Below are positions 19,225 through 26,879 of a stretch of DNA of 47,300 nucleotides, in pieces (the stretch's first letter is position 1; every line of letters begins with the position of its first letter). Location of the stretch: IMG/VR virus record IMGVR_UViG_3300047678_000203, positions 1 to 47,300 of that record; one strand, written 5' to 3'. Source of the DNA: a virus. The translations under genes and the position numbers were made by a program. The notes beneath the pieces were generated by a model. The model was not told where the DNA came from and did no database searches. It worked only from the letters and a program-made list of their open reading frames with translations.

Positions 19225-19515
19225 GTGACAACCTTCCCGCTAGCCCTTGAAGAGGGCCTGGTCCTGGCCGGCGCCATGTCCAAGTCTGCCGCTCGCAATG
19301 CGGCCAAGACGTGGCTGATGACCGTGAAGGGGCTGACGGACGACGACGCCTCGGACGCCATCGATGGGGTCGGCGTCGGTCAGGGAGCCCATTGGAGCGA
19401 CGAGCCCGACAATGACGGAAACGCGCCGGCGGGCTTCGTGATGAGCCCCGACTACCCTGGGGCCGTTCCGGTCACGATCGTCCACCTGGCCCGCCCACTG
19501 CTGGTCGGTGAATGA
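19225..19515 (+). CDS. Small protein between tail and lysis genes, unknown
   Basis: This 96-residue protein from GTG 19225 is preceded by GAGGAG at 19215-19220. It starts MTTFPLALEEGLVLAGAMSK, followed by a helix (AARNAAKTWLMTVKGLTDDD) and a proline- and acid-rich middle. It overlaps the endolysin start by 4 bases. No family is recognised. It may be a tail tip or lysis accessory protein. Confidence 0.65.
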   Translation: MTTFPLALEEGLVLAGAMSKSAARNAAKTWLMTVKGLTDDDASDAIDGVGVGQGAHWSDEPDNDGNAPAGFVMSPDYPGAVPVTIVHLARPLLVGE

Positions 19516-20417
19516 TGGCGCAGTCGCCGGAGTACCCCGACCTGCCGTGGATGCCGCCGCGATCCTGGACGGACGCCAACCGGTCGAGCGTGCAGCTGGT
19601 CGTCATCCACACGACCGAGGGCAGCGCGCACGCCCAGTCCGCCGAGGATGGTGCCAGCTACGACCAGCGCCGCACCGACGGCACCAGCACCCACTACTTC
19701 GTCGACAGCGACTCGGTCGTGCAGTGCGTCCGCACCGCCGACCAGGCGCACACGGCCCGCGCCCAGGGCAACCGCCGGGGTATCCAGTACGAACTGTGCG
19801 GCCGCACGACCCTCGACTGGGCCGGCGCCTACGCGCAGGCGATGTTGCGGCGCGCGGCGCACCAGGCGGCCCGGGACTGCCGGAAGTGGGGCATCCCAGC
19901 CCGCAAGCTCAGCCCAGCGCAGGTCGCCGACGGGCTGAAGGGCTTCTGCGGGCACGCCGACATCACGTACGCGTTCCCGCAGGACGGCGGCACCCACACC
20001 GACCCGGGCAGCGCATTCCCGTGGTCGCAGTTCCTGGGCTACGTCCAGGCCGAACTCAACCCGGAGGTAACCGTGGACCTGCAAGACGTCAAGGACATCT
20101 GGACCACCGACGGCTTCATCGCCGCCCCGGCCAACGCCGCGTCGGCCGCCTCAAACCCGTACTGGACTCCGGCCTCGTTCCTGAAGGACGGCTCGGAGCT
20201 GGCCCGGGCCAACGCGCAGACCCTCGCCGAGATCAAGGCCACGCAGGTGGCGATCCTGGCGAAAGTGTCCGGCGACCTGGTCGACGAGCAGGCGGTCGCG
20301 GCGGGCGTGCTGGCGGGCCTGCCGGTTCCGGCGATCGTCACGGCGATCGCGTCCGGTCTCCCGCCGGAGCTGGCGCGTCAGGTTGCTGACGAGCTGGCTG
20401 CCCGGCTGGCGTCGTGA
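19512..20417 (+). CDS. Endolysin, N-acetylmuramoyl-L-alanine amidase
   Basis: This 301-residue protein has an N-terminal Amidase_2 (PGRP-like) domain. The zinc ligand H33 is in VVIHTTEGSAH, a second His is in DQAHTARAQGNRRGIQYEL, and the distal His-x-Asp is in THTDPGSAFPW (residues about 160-170). The fold binds zinc and cuts the bond between muramic acid and the stem peptide. Residues about 185-301 are helical (ARANAQTLAEIKATQVAIL) and probably target or oligomerise the enzyme. No signal peptide is visible, so release depends on the holin genes that follow. It overlaps the previous gene by 4 bases. Confidence 0.92.
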   Translation: MMAQSPEYPDLPWMPPRSWTDANRSSVQLVVIHTTEGSAHAQSAEDGASYDQRRTDGTSTHYFVDSDSVVQCVRTADQAHTARAQGNRRGIQYELCGRTTLDWAGAYAQAMLRRAAHQAARDCRKWGIPARKLSPAQVADGLKGFCGHADITYAFPQDGGTHTDPGSAFPWSQFLGYVQAELNPEVTVDLQDVKDIWTTDGFIAAPANAASAASNPYWTPASFLKDGSELARANAQTLAEIKATQVAILAKVSGDLVDEQAVAAGVLAGLPVPAIVTAIASGLPPELARQVADELAARLAS

Positions 20418-20696
20418 GTGAGCGAGCGCGCCACCCCGCCGACCACTCCGCCCCGTGGGATCGCGGTGCGGGATCTCGTTTCGTTCGTCCTGGGCTGGGG
20501 CCTGATCGGCTACGAGGTGCTGCTCCGGCCGGACGTGCGGGAGTCGGTGCTGCTGCTGGCCGCTACGGCGGTGGGGATTCCCGGTCTGACGTTGGGCGCG
20601 TCGTCGGTGGCGGAGGCGGTGCGGTCCCGCGCTGGTACCGGATCGCCGTCGGAACCCTCTCCGCCGGTGGTGTCGCCACCGTCGCCGCCATCCTGA
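20418..20696 (+). CDS. Lysis-module membrane protein (possible second holin)
   Basis: This 92-residue protein begins one base after the endolysin stop. It has one clear membrane segment (LVSFVLGWGLIGYEVLL, about residues 20-36) and a second hydrophobic stretch (VLLLAATAVGIPGLTLG, about 44-60). The tail is Ser-Pro-rich. Small membrane proteins of this type with a basic-hydrophobic build often accompany actinophage endolysins. An alternative -1 frame continues past its stop with a further hydrophobic segment (see the feature at 20633). Holin function is inferred from topology and position. Confidence 0.72.
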   Translation: MSERATPPTTPPRGIAVRDLVSFVLGWGLIGYEVLLRPDVRESVLLLAATAVGIPGLTLGASSVAEAVRSRAGTGSPSEPSPPVVSPPSPPS

Positions 20697-20716
20697 TCGC
20701 CCGAAGCCTCGGATAG
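20633..20716 (+). other. -1 frame continuation encoding a possible third membrane segment
   Basis: In the -1 frame relative to the 20418 gene, bases 20633-20716 read WYRIAVGTLSAGGVATVAAI and onward to LARSLG-like hydrophobic residues ending at TAG 20714-20716. The codons here are strongly C-ending (ATC GCC GTC GCC), typical of real genes in this genome, and the stop abuts the ribosome site of the next gene. No usable start codon lies in this frame after 20414. A frameshift would be needed, and no textbook slippery heptamer is visible. Confidence 0.35.
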
Positions 20717-20725
20717 GAGCACACC

Positions 20726-20953
20726 ATGCCCAACGTCACCGCAAAGATCATCTGCGACAGCAAGACCGAGACCGGCGAAGGCGACGACCGCACGGTCAAC
20801 GTCGCGTTCCGCCCGGACTACCAGGACGGCCGCAACGCCGAGTGGGCGCGGTGGACGCCCGGCCTGTCGCTGACCATGGGCCTGAGGGGCGCGGTCGCCG
20901 ACCTGTTCGAGGTCGGCAAGCCGTACACGCTCACGTTCTCCGAGGAGGACTGA
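20726..20953 (+). CDS. Small conserved lysis-region protein, unknown
   Basis: This 75-residue protein has the pattern FRPDYQDGRNAEWARWTPGL and ends in YTLTFSEED. I recognise this as a short protein often located beside lysis genes in actinophages, with no known role. It is beta-rich and soluble. AGGAG lies at 20715-20719, 6 bases before the ATG. Confidence 0.78.
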   Translation: MPNVTAKIICDSKTETGEGDDRTVNVAFRPDYQDGRNAEWARWTPGLSLTMGLRGAVADLFEVGKPYTLTFSEED

Positions 20954-20955
20954 CC

Positions 20956-21174
20956 ATGCGCACCGCAGCCTTCTGGCGCGAAACGGCGGAGAGAGCCGTC
21001 AAGTCCGCAGCTCAGGCCCTACTCGGCCTGTGGCCGCTCGACCAGTTCAACGTCCTCGACGCCGACCCGCGTTTGGCCGGCGGGGTCGCGGCTGGCGCCG
21101 CGGTGCTGTCGATCCTGACGTCGCTGGCGTCGACCGCGATCGGCCGCGGCGACAGTCCGGCCGCGCTGCCGTGA
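20956..21174 (+). CDS. Holin (r1t type)
   Basis: This 72-residue protein starts MRTAAFWRETAERAVKSAAQ, the r1t-type holin signature (FW..A.ERA.KS.AQ). It has two membrane segments: ALLGLWPLDQFNVLD-flanking residues 20-36 and VAAGAAVLSILTSLASTAIG (about residues 43-62). Holins of this family form membrane lesions that let the amidase reach the cell wall. It follows the previous gene by 2 bases. Confidence 0.85.
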   Translation: MRTAAFWRETAERAVKSAAQALLGLWPLDQFNVLDADPRLAGGVAAGAAVLSILTSLASTAIGRGDSPAALP

Positions 21175-21233: not shown

Positions 21234-21264
21234 CACCCCTGTAGCACCCACAGACGCACTACAG

Positions 21265-21296
21265 AGCCGCCCCCCGACTTCGGTCGGGGGGCGGCT
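21265..21296. terminator. Strong bidirectional terminator with UUCG tetraloop
   Basis: Perfect 14-bp stem AGCCGCCCCCCGAC (21265-21278) with loop TTCG and the exact complement at 21283-21296. It separates the plus-strand lysis genes from the minus-strand gene ending at 21312, so it can stop transcripts from both sides. C(UUCG)G is an unusually stable loop. Confidence 0.9.
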
Positions 21297-21311
21297 TTCG
21301 TCGTGTCCGGA

Positions 21312-21809
21312 CTACTCCGGCACCAGCTCAATGCTGGCCACGTCGATCCAGACCTTCGCGTCGGCCGACTCGATCGCGATCACCTCGGACGGCATCTGCT
21401 CCGACCGGCGCTTGCCCATCGTGAACGACCCCGTCTTCACCCCGTCGGCGCCGACCACCTTGTACGTCACCCGCCACGTGTGCAGCGTCGAGATCTCGCC
21501 GGGCGGCCCTTCAACATGCGCCACTACGTCGAAGCGGATCATGCATCGATCCTTGACGCATTGCCGGGACGTCTCCCGGGGTGTCAGCGAGATCGAGTCC
21601 AGCGGCGGCGTCTCCACGGGGGCGGGCCCCGGCACCGAGCTGGCGCCCGCCCCCGTGGCAGCTACGGCATGGCCGGGCGAGTCGCTGCCACGGTTGACGA
21701 ACAGGAAGGCTCCGCCACCGACAGCCAGCGCCAGGACGGCAACGCCGATCCGCAGCCAGGGTCGCGGCTGACGCCGAGGGGTCTCGATGATTGGCTGCGG
21801 GTAGGACAC
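21312..21809 (-). CDS. Membrane-anchored extracytoplasmic protein (possible lysogenic conversion or exclusion gene)
   Basis: This 165-residue protein is read against the late genes from GTG at 21809; GGGAG lies 5 bases upstream on the minus strand. Residues 1-16 are short and cytoplasmic (SYPQPIIETPRRQPRP), residues about 17-40 form one membrane helix (WLRIGVAVLALAVGGGAFLF), and residues 41-75 are a proline/alanine linker. The rest is a small beta-rich domain with two cysteines (RQCVKDRCMIRFDVV) that could form a disulphide. Isolated minus-strand genes between the lysis and lysogeny modules are often expressed from the prophage. A role in superinfection exclusion or surface change is inferred. 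Confidence 0.78.
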   Translation of the reverse strand: MSYPQPIIETPRRQPRPWLRIGVAVLALAVGGGAFLFVNRGSDSPGHAVAATGAGASSVPGPAPVETPPLDSISLTPRETSRQCVKDRCMIRFDVVAHVEGPPGEISTLHTWRVTYKVVGADGVKTGSFTMGKRRSEQMPSEVIAIESADAKVWIDVASIELVPE

Positions 21810-21953: not shown

Positions 21954-22052
21954 ACGCCCGCCGGTCGTTGAGATGGCGTACCGTCGATAGCCGGCGGCCG
22001 GTGTCTTGCGGCCCGGCCGCCATCCCCTGACCGCAAGCAGGGACGTGACCCC

Positions 22053-23222
22053 ATGCCCGACACCTTCGCCGTCGAACTCCGCCGACTCCGCGGCCAGCGA
22101 GGCCTGTCCTACCGGCAACTCGCCGCCCTCTCCGCCGTGAGTTCCAGCCAGATCAGCGACCTTGAGAAGTGCCAGCGCCGGCCAACCCCGGAGATCGCCG
22201 CCGCCCTCGACCTGGCCCTCGACGCCCGCGGCCGGCTGTCCGCCATGCTGCGTACCCCGGCGCCCGACGACATCGAGGGCGAGTACGAGGCCCTGGAGCT
22301 GGCGCAACGCGCCGCCGCTTCCGACGTCAGCGACACCACCCTGAACCGGCTCGACGCCATCGCCGACAAGATGGCCATGTCGTACGCGACCACCCCGCCC
22401 GCCGAGCTGCTGCCCAAGGTCCGCCGACACCTGCAATACGTCGACCAGCTGCTCGCTGGCCGGAAGACTCTGCAGCAGCACCGGCGCCTGCTCGTCGCCG
22501 GCGGCTGGCTGTCGCTGCTGCGGGCCACCGTGCACATCGACCTTCAGCAGCGGGCCGCCGCCGCGGCCCAGCTGGAGACAGCGTCCGAGCTGGCCGAGCA
22601 AGCTGGTCATGCCGAGATCGCCGCCTGGTGCCTGGAGACGGACGCCTGGGACCACCTCACCCGCGGCCACCACCGCCGGGCCGTCGAGCTGTCCCAGCAC
22701 GCGCAGGCGATCGCCCCGGCGAACGGGTCGGCGATTGTGCAGGCGACCGCTCAGGAGGGCCGGGCGTGGGCGCGGCTCGGCGACCAGGCGGCGATGCGGG
22801 ACGCTCTCGGCCGTGTCGAGCAGATGGCCGGACACCGTCCGATGCCGGCCCATCCCGAGCACCACTACCAGTACGACCCGGGGAAGATGCACGCCTACAC
22901 GGCGACCACGCTGGCATGGGCCGGTGACCCGGCCGCGGAGCGGGTGGCTCGGGAGGTGTTGATCGAGCTGGAGGCGGAGGGCGCGCGGCCGCGGCGGATC
23001 GCGTCGGCGCGGCTGGACCTCGGCCTGGCGCTGCTGTCCGGCGAGAACCGGCGTCCGGACGAGGCGGCGGCCGAGGCGCGGGCGGCGATCCGGTCCGGCC
23101 GGATCGTGCCGTCGAACTGGTGGCGCGTTGAGGAACTGGTGGGCGGGGTGGTGGAGTCCGGCGCTTCGGAGGGCCGCGACCTGCGCGAGGAAGCCAACGC
23201 GGCCCGGCCTGTCGAGGGCTGA
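22053..23222 (+). CDS. XRE-family regulator with TPR-like helical domain
   Basis: This 389-residue protein has an N-terminal XRE helix-turn-helix: FAVELRRLRGQRGLSYRQLA, then SVSSSQISDLEKCQRRPTPE (residues about 4-55). The rest is all-helical and resembles the TPR-like sensor half of actinomycete XRE regulators of the WhiJ type, which control development and antibiotic genes and are typically paired with small DUF397 proteins. A DUF397 gene lies 900 bases downstream here. The ATG at 22053 follows AGGGACG. This type is common in host chromosomes and unusual in a phage. It is a candidate lysogenic conversion gene. Ligand and targets are unknown. Confidence 0.85.
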   Translation: MPDTFAVELRRLRGQRGLSYRQLAALSAVSSSQISDLEKCQRRPTPEIAAALDLALDARGRLSAMLRTPAPDDIEGEYEALELAQRAAASDVSDTTLNRLDAIADKMAMSYATTPPAELLPKVRRHLQYVDQLLAGRKTLQQHRRLLVAGGWLSLLRATVHIDLQQRAAAAAQLETASELAEQAGHAEIAAWCLETDAWDHLTRGHHRRAVELSQHAQAIAPANGSAIVQATAQEGRAWARLGDQAAMRDALGRVEQMAGHRPMPAHPEHHYQYDPGKMHAYTATTLAWAGDPAAERVAREVLIELEAEGARPRRIASARLDLGLALLSGENRRPDEAAAEARAAIRSGRIVPSNWWRVEELVGGVVESGASEGRDLREEANAARPVEG

Positions 23223-23228
23223 CCTCCT

Positions 23229-23271
23229 GTCCGCACGGTTGCGGACGCCGCCGCGGACTTTGCGGACGCCG
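23229..23271. promoter_or_regulatory. Cluster of GCGGAC half-sites, candidate operator
   Basis: GTCCGCA-CGGT-TGCGGAC (23229-23246) is a perfect 7-bp inverted repeat. TTGCGGACGCCG occurs at 23239-23250 and again at 23260-23271, exactly 21 bases apart (two helical turns). GCGGAC also occurs at 23253-23258. This gives four half-sites in 43 bases, inside the 147-base gap between the XRE-TPR gene and the next operon. The regulator is the obvious candidate binder; this is inference. Confidence 0.55.
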
Positions 23272-23369
23272 GCTACCTGCCGCTGCCGTGATCCGTCGCT
23301 GACGATCGGTAGCAGCGGCGGCGGGTGCAACCCACAGAGCGCCCGCCGCCGCCCCGATCGGAGGCGGGC

Positions 23370-23513
23370 ATGTTCAGCGAGGCCATGCGGAAGCTGATGT
23401 GGCGACGGCGACTACGCGCCGCCCGAGACTGGCAGGAAGCCCAACGCCAGCAGGCGGCCGAACACAGTGCCGCGGTTCGGCGGATCCTCGACCAGGTGGA
23501 GCGGGCTGCGTGA
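23370..23513 (+). CDS. Small basic helical protein of the DUF397 cassette
   Basis: This 47-residue protein starts MFSEAMRKLMWRRRLRAARD and is a single amphipathic helix rich in Arg, Gln and Ala. GGAGG lies at 23360-23364, 5 bases before the ATG. It is the first gene of a three-gene operon that ends in DUF397 and overlaps the next gene by 4 bases. No family is recognised. It could bind DNA, or act as a partner of its neighbours. Confidence 0.65.
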   Translation: MFSEAMRKLMWRRRLRAARDWQEAQRQQAAEHSAAVRRILDQVERAA

Positions 23514-23722
23514 GCCGGCCGATCCTGACTGTCGGCCCCCGCACGCTCCCGGACGCCGGCACCGCCCGGGTGTGGATCGACACCGGGTCCGGACCGGGGT
23601 ACGTCCGCGAGGTCAGCGTCACCCGGCTCACCCTCGCCGAGGTCGATGACGGCCAGGGCGACCACGCGTTCTACCTGCTGTGCCGTCCCGGCGAGGTGCC
23701 GTGCGAGGCCACCGATGGGTGA
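23510..23722 (+). CDS. Small protein of the DUF397 cassette, unknown
   Basis: This 70-residue protein starts MSRPILTVGPRTLPDAGTAR and contains a strand-rich segment (GYVREVSVTRLTLAEVDD) and two cysteines near the end. The GTG overlaps the previous stop by 4 bases, and the stop overlaps the following ATG by 8. It is co-translated with the others in the cassette. No function is recognised. Confidence 0.65.
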   Translation: MSRPILTVGPRTLPDAGTARVWIDTGSGPGYVREVSVTRLTLAEVDDGQGDHAFYLLCRPGEVPCEATDG

Positions 23723-24335
23723 CTTCACGCTAAGCCAGCTCATCGCCTCGCCGGAGTTCCCGCTCCCGGCAGACAGCGCACCGGCCCGGTTCACCCGGCT
23801 CCTCGCCGAGGTGGTCCCCGGCTGGCGGGTCGAGCCGCCCGACGAGCAGGCCGTCGACATGCATTTCGCGGCGATCACCCCGGACGACACCCGGCGCAGT
23901 GTCGCCGTCACCGTGGACTGGCCGCCAGCGGCCGGATACCGGGACATCGACGAGTGGACGGTGCACGGCTACGGCCCCCACCGGGTCGGCATGGAGTTGC
24001 AGCTGTGCCACGACGCCGGCCGGGAGGAGTTCGCTGTCGCGCTCCGCCTGCTACGGACGGCGTGGGAAGACGTTCGGTCCGGATCAGCCGGGCCGAAGCG
24101 AAAAGAGGAGGGCCTCGTGGAGGTCAAGGGAATGCAGGTCAACCTGGACGGCGCCGACTGGAAGAAGAGCAGCCGCTCCGGTGCGGCAGGGCACTGCGTG
24201 GAGGTCGCGGTCGTCGGGCAGGCGACCGCGGTCCGTGACTCGAAGGACCCGTCAGGCCCGGCGCTGGTGTTCACCGGCGACGAGTGGGACGCGTTCCTGG
24301 GTGGCGCGAAGGCCGGCGAGTTCGACCGGAGCTGA
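23715..24335 (+). CDS. Long protein with C-terminal DUF397 domain
   Basis: From the ATG at 23715 the frame stays open for 206 residues and runs into the DUF397 domain without a stop. Residues 1-123 form an alpha/beta domain of unknown family (GWRVEPPDEQAVDMHFAAIT, RVGMELQLCHDAGREEFAVA). Residues about 124-134 are a charged linker (PKRKEEGLVE). Residues about 135-206 are DUF397. A strong ribosome site and GTG lie inside the linker at 24105-24119, so a short form may also be made. Whether the long form exists cannot be told from sequence. Confidence 0.55.
   Translation: MGDFTLSQLIASPEFPLPADSAPARFTRLLAEVVPGWRVEPPDEQAVDMHFAAITPDDTRRSVAVTVDWPPAAGYRDIDEWTVHGYGPHRVGMELQLCHDAGREEFAVALRLLRTAWEDVRSGSAGPKRKEEGLVEVKGMQVNLDGADWKKSSRSGAAGHCVEVAVVGQATAVRDSKDPSGPALVFTGDEWDAFLGGAKAGEFDRS
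24117..24335 (+). CDS. DUF397 protein, short form
   Basis: This 72-residue form starts at GTG 24117, 5 bases after GAGGAGG (24105-24111). It has the DUF397 hallmark: WKKSSRSGAAGHCVEVAVV, then AVRDSKDPSGPALVFTGDEW and FLGGAKAGEFD. DUF397 proteins are small partners of XRE-TPR regulators in actinomycetes, for example the WhiJ neighbourhood, and likely modulate them. The strong internal ribosome site suggests this is the main product. Confidence 0.72.
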   Translation: MEVKGMQVNLDGADWKKSSRSGAAGHCVEVAVVGQATAVRDSKDPSGPALVFTGDEWDAFLGGAKAGEFDRS

Positions 24336-24350
24336 CCCTCTCCTGATGGG

Positions 24351-24382
24351 CGGCGGCCGGGCCACGCATGGCCCGGCCGCCG
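24351..24382. terminator. Hairpin between converging genes
   Basis: CGGCGGCCGGGCCA (24351-24364) and its exact complement at 24369-24382 form a perfect 14-bp stem with a 4-base loop. It lies between the DUF397 stop (24335) and the end of the minus-strand gene (24387). There is no long T tract. It probably ends both transcripts. Confidence 0.75.
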
Positions 24383-24386
24383 TTCG

Positions 24387-24596
24387 CTATTCGCCTTCGG
24401 AGCCCTCGTCAACGGGCGGACGGTGCTCGCGGATCCAGGCCATGACTTCGTCCTCGTACCAGACGGCGCCCATGCGCAGGGTGTCGTCGACGGGGTCGGG
24501 AAAGCCTTTGCGGTGCATGATCTCGCGGGCCCTGGTGCGTGCGAGCCCGAGTGCTTGCTGGATCTCCCAGGCACCCATGAGTCGCTCTCTGCGCAT
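24387..24596 (-). CDS. xis: Excisionase-like small helix-turn-helix protein
   Basis: This 69-residue protein (63 residues from an internal ATG at 24578) has the winged HTH pattern of the AlpA/Xis group: MGAWEIQQALGLARTRAREI, then GFPDP, AVWYEDEVMAWIREH. The internal start has a better purine-rich site (AGAGAG). It is on the same strand as the integrase but separated from it by one plus-strand gene. In temperate actinophages such proteins bend attachment-site DNA and direct excision. Another DNA-binding role is possible. Confidence 0.68.
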   Translation of the reverse strand: MRRERLMGAWEIQQALGLARTRAREIMHRKGFPDPVDDTLRMGAVWYEDEVMAWIREHRPPVDEGSEGE

Positions 24597-24888: not shown

Positions 24889-25185
24889 ATGACCACCCAC
24901 ACCGCCGCCGCCGTCCTCAGCCCCGACGACCAGCCCGACACCACCGCCGCCAGCCTCGAACACTGCGAAGCCTGCGGCTACCAGCTCTACGGCATCGTCC
25001 ACACCTGGGAAGCCGCCTACGACCTGCTCCGCGCCGACCTGGTCCAGGTCATCGTCGTGGCCCGCCGCGACACCTGGGCACCACGCATCGAGTACGCCGA
25101 ACGCCGCAACCAGCGCGTAATCGCCAGCCGCGGCACCACCAACACCCGCTGGCGGCGCGCCCGCGTCGTCCGCCGCTACCGCTGA
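24889..25185 (+). CDS. Small protein with CxxC motif, unknown
   Basis: This 98-residue protein from ATG 24889 is preceded by GGGGAAG. It has CEACGYQLYG at about residues 22-31, a helix (TWEAAYDLLRADLVQVIVVA), and a very basic C-terminus (TRWRRARVVRRYR). The CxxC could hold zinc with later residues. It is the only plus-strand gene between the Xis-like and integrase genes. Its own promoter must lie in the preceding gap. Function is unknown. Confidence 0.68.
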   Translation: MTTHTAAAVLSPDDQPDTTAASLEHCEACGYQLYGIVHTWEAAYDLLRADLVQVIVVARRDTWAPRIEYAERRNQRVIASRGTTNTRWRRARVVRRYR

Positions 25186-25240: not shown

Positions 25241-26080
25241 TCAGGTTAGATCCGGCAGGGCTGCCACCGCAGCGGCCCGCTGAGCGTCGACGACCTCGAC
25301 GTACCCCTGCGTGGTCGACACGTCCGCGTGCCCCATCAAATCCTGCACGGTCCGCAGGTCCTTCGTCCGGGCGTACGTCTGCGTTCCGAACCAGTGCCTC
25401 AAGCGGTGCATGCTCGCCCCGGCCTGCATCTTCCGCAGCCGGTAGTTGCCCCGGTGCGCGACCTTCTGCGGGCTCAGCCGGGTCACGCCGTCGTGGTCCA
25501 GGGCGACCGGCCCGGCGGGCAGCTCGGCGACCGCCCGCCACAGTGCCGGGTGCGTCGGCACGAACCGCTCCCGGTCGCCCTTGCCCGACGGCACCCAGAC
25601 GTGCTGCTCGGTGATGTGCGCCCGGTCGGCACGCGAGATCTCCACGCACCGCAGTCCGGCGTAGGCCGCCAGCAGGAACCACGCCCGGTGCGGCTCCGGG
25701 GCCCGGCCGAGCATGTCGGTGAGCTGCTCGGTGCTGACCGGCTTCGGGCGGCGACGTGGCCGGCGGACGCGAGGCAGGCAAACGGTGGGGTCGTAGTCCA
25801 GCCAAGGGTCGTCCGGGTCGTCCGGGGGGTAGCACGCCCAGGAGAAGAAGCCGGCGATCGCGGATCGGTAGGTGAGCCGGGTCGACGGGCCGCGGTTGGG
25901 TGCGAATATCCAGGCGCGCAGTTCGGGGGTGCTGGCTCCAGCCAGACCGCTGGGCAGGTCGCGGTCGGCCCGGCGCAGGATGCCGGTGTAGTCGGTGATG
26001 GTGCGGGGCGACAGGGCGGTGTCGACGCCGTCAGCGGCCTCGGCGGCGAGGTGGGTGGAGTACAGCTCGATGAGGTCCAT
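25241..26080 (-). CDS. int: Tyrosine integrase
   Basis: This 279-residue protein starts MDLIELYSTHLAAEAADGVD (ATG at 26080, GGGTGG upstream). The N-terminal SAM-like domain (residues 1-95) includes TALSPRTITDYTGILRRADR. The catalytic domain has R144 in AYAGLRCVEIS, K167 in SGKGDRER, H225 and R228 in MHRLRHWFG, H251 in LMGHADVSTT and the nucleophile Y260 in TTQGY. All six active-site positions are present, so the enzyme should be active in attP x attB recombination. It is shorter than lambda Int and lacks a clear arm-binding domain. It lies 13 bases from the repressor, in the same direction. Confidence 0.92.
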   Translation of the reverse strand: MDLIELYSTHLAAEAADGVDTALSPRTITDYTGILRRADRDLPSGLAGASTPELRAWIFAPNRGPSTRLTYRSAIAGFFSWACYPPDDPDDPWLDYDPTVCLPRVRRPRRRPKPVSTEQLTDMLGRAPEPHRAWFLLAAYAGLRCVEISRADRAHITEQHVWVPSGKGDRERFVPTHPALWRAVAELPAGPVALDHDGVTRLSPQKVAHRGNYRLRKMQAGASMHRLRHWFGTQTYARTKDLRTVQDLMGHADVSTTQGYVEVVDAQRAAAVAALPDLT

Positions 26081-26093
26081 GTGATCCACCCTG

Positions 26094-26531
26094 TTACGCG
26101 GCGCTGCGGCTGGGGATCGTGTGTCCGGGGGTACGAACTTGGCGCGGTCTGCGCTCTTCCCGAGTTGTCCGTCCGGTCGGGCGTTGACGGGAGCGGACCG
26201 GGTGTGCCTTTGGCGCTGGAGCCGCCGAACGGCTGATCTGGCCGGAAACAACCTTAGGGTTGTTGATCACCCCGGCCGCGACTTCGGCTCCGGGGAGAAG
26301 CGCCTGGAAGCTGATGCCGAGGCCGCTGGCGATGAGGGCCAGATCGTTGAGGTCGATGGGCTGTTTGCCGCGTAGGCGGACGCTCAGCCACTGCTCCGTT
26401 TTCCCGATCCTCCGCGCCAGTTCGCTCTGCCTAATGTCGGCACGGGTCATGGCGACGCGGATCTCCATGGCTACGAGTTGCGTGAGGGTCTTCGCGGGGA
26501 CCTCAGGCTCAAGACTCATAGCGTCAATCAT
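26094..26531 (-). CDS. XRE-family immunity repressor
   Basis: This 145-residue protein from ATG 26531 has GGAGG 6-7 bases upstream. Residues about 20-75 form an XRE HTH: MEIRVAMTRADIRQSELARR, IGKTEQWLSVRLRGKQPIDL, NDLALIASGLGISFQALLPG. The C-terminal 50 residues are basic and unstructured (RSRQRPTGRTTREERRPRQV). It is transcribed divergently from the Cro-like gene across an 87-base gap with inverted repeats. It precedes the integrase in the same direction, so one lysogenic transcript can carry both. No C-terminal peptidase domain of the LexA/CI type is visible. Confidence 0.83.
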   Translation of the reverse strand: MIDAMSLEPEVPAKTLTQLVAMEIRVAMTRADIRQSELARRIGKTEQWLSVRLRGKQPIDLNDLALIASGLGISFQALLPGAEVAAGVINNPKVVSGQISRSAAPAPKAHPVRSRQRPTGRTTREERRPRQVRTPGHTIPSRSAA

Positions 26532-26618: not shown

Positions 26619-26879
26619 ATGACGCAAGAGACAACGGTTTTGACGACCGGCCTAACGCATCGCGTTGCGGCTGAGATCAGGGCTGAGCTTGCGCGCCAGC
26701 AGATGACTCAGCGGGAACTAGCCCGCCGGATTCGCATCGACCAGGCCATCGTCAGCAAGCGCCTCAACGGCGGCTCGGCCCGCTCGTGGACGCTCGACGA
26801 GCTGGACAGCATCGCTGTCGCCCTGGGCGTCCCGGCGGCCTCGTTCCTCGCCGCCCGGTCCACTGCGAGCGCGGCATGA
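26619..26879 (+). CDS. Cro-like XRE-family regulator
   Basis: This 86-residue protein is one XRE HTH domain: THRVAAEIRAELARQQMTQR, ELARRIRIDQAIVSKRLNGG, then LDELDSIAVALGVPAASFLA. It is divergent from the repressor and is the first gene of the early lytic operon, the Cro position. The ATG at 26619 lacks a strong ribosome site, and a short upstream frame (ATG at 26599) ends at the start codon. It overlaps the next gene (ATGA). Confidence 0.82.
   Translation: MTQETTVLTTGLTHRVAAEIRAELARQQMTQRELARRIRIDQAIVSKRLNGGSARSWTLDELDSIAVALGVPAASFLAARSTASAA

Follow-up and report, generated by a model that had tools for sequence, protein, structure and literature searches.

An NsdA-family XRE-TPR regulator gene and a DUF397 operon between the lysis and integration genes of a temperate actinomycete phage

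Introduction

What does a regulatory cassette of host type do in a temperate phage, and does it serve the lysogen or the phage itself? The question is raised by positions 22053–24335 of a viral DNA stretch of 47,300 nucleotides (IMG/VR record IMGVR_UViG_3300047678_000203, positions 1 to 47,300; hereafter the window), where an XRE gene is followed by three overlapping open reading frames (ORFs), the last with a DUF397 domain. Endolysin and other lysis genes (19512–21174) lie on one side of this cassette and an integrase gene (25241–26080, minus strand) on the other. The original prediction, made from the letters alone, described the cassette as a WhiJ-like regulator with a DUF397 operon, acting as a lysogenic conversion module and possibly undescribed.

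The canonical XRE-DUF397 pairs of actinomycetes (WhiJ/BldB, Scr1/Scr2 and the Sco1979 family) likewise combine an XRE helix-turn-helix (HTH) protein with a downstream DUF397 gene, and they too are present in multiple copies. Fourteen such pairs are pleiotropic regulators, none of which acts as a toxin-antitoxin system, and DUF5753 is the C-terminal domain of all 15 Streptomyces coelicolor XRE partners of DUF397 (Table 1, PMC10364602). WhiJ9 binds three direct repeats next to the gene that encodes it, and the DUF397-related protein BldB forms hetero-oligomers with its paralogues and does not bind DNA (PMC10294661).

Results

Gene content and coding evidence

The first gene of the cassette (22053–23222, plus strand) encodes an XRE-TPR regulator of 389 aa. 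It is followed on the same strand by P2 (23370–23513; 47 aa, basic and probably helical), P3 (23510–23722; 70 aa, GTG start, beta-rich) and P4 (23715–24335), an ORF of 206 aa that joins an N-terminal domain of unknown kind (P4N) to a C-terminal DUF397 domain. The P2, P3 and P4 ORFs share a few bases at their junctions, as in a coupled operon. The same four ORFs were picked by a codon-usage gene caller that was trained mainly on other phage genes, with the XRE gene itself in the training set, and their GC3 values are 0.79–0.93. When compared with homologues, every cassette gene exhibits Ka below Ks, with Ka/Ks ratios of 0.4 for P2, 0.24 for P3, 0.56 for P4N, 0.5–0.6 for DUF397 and about 0.15–0.36 for the XRE gene, where much of the underlying divergence may predate capture.

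The DUF397 domain (PF04149) occupies P4 residues 147–199 (80.6 bits; cut-off 24) and was also recovered when the whole record was searched. An internal GTG preceded by a Shine-Dalgarno sequence (GAGGAGG, 24105–24111) marks a probable separately translated DUF397 protein of 72 aa (24117–24335, plus strand). At the matching point, AAGGAG-n5/6-ATG is found in three Actinoplanes loci (L121, L122 and L126), and stand-alone DUF397 genes start there in L131, L123, L176 and L178. In the structure model of P4, the internal Shine-Dalgarno sequence and start fall in a low-confidence linker (residues 125–137). From these observations, DUF397 is likely made as a protein of its own (72 aa), with or without the fusion, and the 206-aa ORF may hold two products in one frame, of 134 aa and 72 aa. 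P4N and DUF397 also form a single ORF in L121 and L122.

P3 is present in 8 of 68 Actinoplanes genomes, with up to 6 copies each, and its alignment contains 15 invariant columns in 19 homologues; its structure model has a pLDDT of 85. P4N is found in 6 of 301 Micromonosporaceae, and a fold search with the P3 and P4 models returned no match at E ≤ 0.001. P2 homologues adjoin XRE genes in several Actinoplanes loci and occur in phages L176 and L178. The original prediction had proposed the 47- and 70-residue proteins as extra members of the usual pair, and both do recur with DUF397 in Actinoplanes chromosomes and in L176. As judged from this conservation, P2 and P3 are real protein families. In RRNPP regulators of the AimR/PlcR type, the gene of an HTH-TPR receptor is followed by that of a small exported peptide precursor. 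The cassette has an HTH-TPR gene and a small gene. P2 is highly basic, with no hydrophobic signal sequence seen by eye, and a profile search of solved structures (PDB) returned mainly HTH matches, with no RRNPP receptor among them.

Family and origin of the regulator

The N-terminus of the XRE-TPR protein matches HTH_31 (40.1 bits) and HTH_3 (30.6 bits) in Pfam, and residues 35–354 match the NsdA-family regulator model (NsdA_fam_reg, NCBIfam NF053720) at 95.8 bits, above the cut-off of 75. Two phage homologues also pass this cut-off (L002, 117.3 bits; L176, 82.7 bits). The NsdA and NsdB equivalog models gave no match to the protein at E ≤ 0.01. A WhiJ-type assignment was rejected, since DUF5753 (PF19054), the marker of WhiJ-type DUF397 partners, has no match in the protein at E ≤ 1, whereas the five canonical XRE partners tested score 107–201 bits for this domain. 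The WhiJ-like description is thus wrong at the level of family. A tie to developmental regulators remains by family name only, through NsdA. NsdA is a repressor of development and antibiotic production.

The nearest relatives of the regulator are Actinoplanes chromosomal genes, the best five of which are 72–79% identical to it. In a maximum-likelihood tree, the window's XRE gene lies inside the Actinoplanes chromosomal clade as sister to the G207 copy (support 99/97), and the phage copy in L002 falls on a separate branch. The family match and the nested position together bear out the view that this is a host-type cassette in a temperate phage. A search of the XRE-TPR protein against phage records gave no match. 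DUF397 similarity was found near the XRE-TPR gene in only 3 of 80 loci fetched from other genomes (L008, L054 and L067), so on chromosomes this regulator does not usually come with DUF397.

Some neighbours of the chromosomal relatives were also recorded. A reading frame resembling the C-terminal part of a tyrosine integrase (L021:7674-8054) lies about 500 nt from an A. utahensis chromosomal XRE-TPR gene (77%). In Embleya and in a Kutzneria-labelled plasmid, XRE-TPR relatives are divergent to ATP-binding genes (L004:6901-7533 and L007:2858-3424); the Embleya neighbour is HATPase/AbaA-like by eye, and such a gene is a usual neighbour at whiJ loci.

An operator-like array behind the regulator gene

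Directly 3' of the XRE-TPR stop codon, an operator-like array (23228–23267) holds one GTCCGC and three GCGGAC half-sites in 40 nt, arranged as an inverted pair, TGTCCGCA-n3-TTGCGGAC, plus direct GCGGAC half-sites. Within the window this inverted pair has a single perfect occurrence, away from the excisionase-like gene (xis) and the integrase gene. Across 68 Actinoplanes genomes it has two matches, both adjoining XRE-TPR genes. The 60 nt after the stop codon contain a mean of 2.28 half-sites at 32 Micromonosporaceae XRE-TPR loci, with at least 3 in 47% of them, compared with a mean of 0.13, and at least 3 in 0.3%, after 350 other genes of the same loci. We take this enrichment as strong support rather than as a formal probability, as the half-site pattern was picked after inspection of the sequence and the loci counted are related, not independent.

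In L008 and L109 every half-site reads GTACGC/GCGTAC, a concerted change that represents one event in two close genomes. Viral contig L176, as read from its sequence, has a like layout after its XRE-TPR gene with a different half-site, GTTGCC/GGCAAC. At loci with another XRE family (L123, L127, L134 and L178), a palindrome of the GGCACA/TGTGCC type takes the same place before the small-gene operon, so that an operator-like element placed before the small genes looks like a general design. A plain terminator hairpin was considered for the array as well; it is possible for the inverted pair but leaves unexplained why the direct half-site changes together with the pair. The array is probably the operator of the regulator, through which the downstream operon would be controlled locally; WhiJ9, with its repeats, provides a precedent from experiments. 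The single occurrence in the phage, and the restriction of perfect matches to the vicinity of XRE-TPR genes, fit a switch that acts locally better than direct control of many host genes. A genome-wide regulon derived from the operator pattern was rejected, as matches with one mismatch are scattered and little above those of a reversed-pattern control.

Further non-coding elements surround the array. Between it and P2, a second conserved element, GTGATC-n8-ACGATCGG (23288–23309, plus strand), has counterparts at the same place in several relatives, one of which has different half-sites, and also in L176. The leader of the regulator gene (21985–22052, plus strand), which is conserved in four relatives, has two potential RNA hairpins and folds at −33.7 kcal/mol. 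A terminator-like hairpin at 21264–21297 (plus strand) closes the late/lysis genes upstream of the cassette, and another lies between DUF397 and xis (24350–24382); their z scores against mononucleotide shuffles are about −6.5 and −5.3, respectively. A scan for consensus sigma-70 promoters found no site at the cassette.

Recurrence in chromosomes and phages

Parts of the cassette recur in several combinations in Actinoplanes chromosomes: XRE-P2-P3-DUF397 in L126, XRE-TPR-P2-P3 in L128/L107, XRE-P2-P3 in L127–L129, P2-P3-[P4N-DUF397] in L121, P2-P3-[P4N..DUF397] in L122 and XRE...P3-DUF397 in L123. The finding of all four genes together in another phage had been named beforehand as support for the proposal, and viral contig L176 carries all four families in order (its P2 translated by eye from the sequence), followed by xis, a gene we call res, and a serine integrase gene; its XRE-TPR protein is 34% identical to that of the window. 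In L178 the XRE is of a different type; P2, three further small genes and DUF397 (76%) come after it, and then xis, res and an integrase gene whose product is 41% identical to that of the window. L183 has DUF397-xis-res-int without an XRE gene, and in L002 XRE-TPR is accompanied by a P2-like gene and further small genes, without DUF397. From these arrangements, P2 typically comes first and DUF397 last, with exchangeable genes between them.

DUF397 has relatives in 48 viral contigs. A strict peptide search of viral contigs with P4 found none; alignments found more. The prophage whose major capsid protein is nearest (83% identical), in A. palleronii, does not have the cassette in this interval, and other related prophages contain different XRE and small-gene sets there, or none. 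As would be expected of a moron, the cassette is a unit bounded by hairpins, of host origin according to the tree, and variably present, as its absence from that nearby prophage illustrates.

In A. utahensis (L122:5919-8538), P3 and P4N-DUF397 lie beside xis and res in the order and orientation of the phage. From this arrangement the locus is likely a prophage remnant.

Relation to the integration genes

Convergent to DUF397 lies xis (24387–24578, minus strand), which encodes an excisionase-like HTH protein (phrog_2790, E 8e-5); its homologues are convergent to DUF397 in L176, L178, L183 and L122. It is followed by res (24889–25185, plus strand), whose product has no Pfam match. Homologues with 34–36% identity take the same place between xis and the integrase gene in L176, L178 and L183, a relative lies beside xis in L122, and res is possibly part of the recombination module. 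The integrase at 25241–26080 is a tyrosine integrase (PF00589, 56.9 bits). On its other side, a divergent XRE pair (26094–26531, minus strand; 26619–26879, plus strand) matches a repressor family (phrog_4583) and is probably a CI/Cro-like immunity switch. Upstream of the cassette, a gene for a predicted membrane protein or lipoprotein (21312–21809, minus strand) has homologues (31–32%) close to the L178 cassette and to that of A. utahensis L122.

Because the module adjoins xis, res and int in several phages, the main rival to a role in the lysogen is a role in the lysogeny of the phage itself, in which XRE-TPR and DUF397 would sense the state of the host and influence excision or lysogen stability. 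DUF397 lies 51–58 nt from convergent xis, with res and int beyond, in the window, L176, L178 and L183, and XRE and small-gene cassettes also occupy the lysis-integrase interval of L002 and L170. However, hairpins part DUF397 from xis in the window and, similarly strong, in the corresponding gaps (53–58 nt) of L176, L178 and L183. The phage also has the separate CI/Cro-like pair across the integrase gene, the operator motif is absent near xis and int, and related chromosomal cassettes lie away from any detected xis. On balance, we consider a role in the phage's own lysogeny rather doubtful. A fuller version is unlikely: that temperate Micromonosporaceae phages carry a lysogeny-linked control module, composed of an XRE receptor of the NsdA family or another TPR type, a local operator, a near-constant P2, small proteins that can be exchanged and, at the end by xis-res-int, DUF397, and that this module ties the maintenance or excision of the prophage to the developmental state of the host.

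Discussion

The reading that we favor, although with no better than even confidence, is that temperate Micromonosporaceae phages retain a module of host origin with local autoregulation, which would work in the lysogen, probably as a conversion module. It would be a regulatory module of actinomycete (Actinoplanes-type) origin, held between the lysis genes and the excision and integration genes. We infer that the XRE-TPR protein binds the GTCCGC/GCGGAC array past its own gene and so switches the promoter of the P2-P3-P4N-DUF397 operon, whether by activation or repression. A signal, which may be a protein encoded in this operon, would enter through the TPR domain. If BldB-type proteins are a guide, DUF397 would act by protein-protein contact, and the phage DUF397 could oligomerise with the host's own DUF397 proteins. 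All 68 Actinoplanes genomes have 7–25 DUF397 genes each, so that a lysogen adds one member to a large network. Within the lysogen, the module would adjust this XRE/DUF397 network. The unique local operator counts against broad direct control of host genes, and the fact that several phages have the module at the same place, by xis-res-int, might point to a function in their own life cycle.

Two further explanations fare less well than the role in phage lysogeny weighed above. An addiction (toxin-antitoxin) or superinfection-exclusion system is suggested by the prediction of XRE-DUF397 pairs as toxin-antitoxin systems (PMC2701414) and by the link of DUF397 to some VMAP conflict systems (PMC7159879). 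However, overexpression of 14 S. coelicolor DUF397 proteins revealed clear toxicity for none of them (PMC10364602), and PADLOC returned only HTH-level matches to the XRE-TPR protein and nothing for the small proteins, which makes such a system improbable. There is equally little likelihood that the cassette is passenger host DNA without a selected function, as the nearby prophage that lacks it and the differing gene content among phages might indicate, given that the reading frames are all intact with Ka below Ks (divergence that may largely predate capture), the operator-like array and the hairpins have been preserved, and several phages share the layout.

The conversion module proposed here resembles the canonical pairs in part. 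As with WhiJ9, there are repeats beside the regulator gene. In contrast to those pairs, the regulator is an NsdA-family TPR protein without DUF5753, and P2 and P3 intervene where the canonical DUF397 gene lies directly next to its XRE gene. Canonical DUF397 proteins have about 63–96 aa; the cassette ORF has 206 aa, its likely internal start would give 72 aa, and DUF397 lies in one frame with a new N-terminal domain. NsdA/NsdB regulators are close by family, as the cassette XRE protein passes the subfamily cut-off, but the cassette differs in being phage-borne and followed by P2, P3 and DUF397. The Actinoplanes loci L126, L128, L129, L121 and L122 share the same families in the same order, with operator-like repeats after the XRE-TPR gene; they differ in that most are not located by int or xis (L122 being the exception) and several use other XRE families.

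DUF397 itself is not new to phages. Canonical pairs of XRE and DUF397 are present in the records of phages Samy (SAMYPH_91/90), where the pair is near the integrase gene, and in PIS 136 (PIS_120/119), and PHROGs includes a DUF397 family. With the viral contigs counted above, the presence of DUF397 in phages is already a database fact. By title and abstract, none of the papers found on DUF397 and phage in the open-access literature is about phage-carried DUF397 genes, and where the Samy paper deals with regulators, the passages found make no mention of its XRE-DUF397 pair. The Samy and PIS 136 loci are two-gene pairs, in both of which the XRE protein has DUF5753 and does not match the NsdA family. 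Thus, the proposal of an undescribed system holds in part: it fails for the pairing of XRE with DUF397 in phages, and it stands, as far as searched, for the NsdA-type regulator, P2, P3, P4N and the operator layout.

In actinomycetes, regulatory loci of the XRE-DUF397 kind have expanded greatly and are little understood. The cassette of this phage of soil actinomycetes adds to them a branch of NsdA type that has two new families of small proteins and a candidate operator open to view and to testing, and phages repeatedly carry such loci by their integration genes. Should the module be active in lysogens, prophages would contribute to variation in how actinomycetes develop and in their metabolism, and what DUF397 does could be learned in the simple system that the compact phage version would offer.
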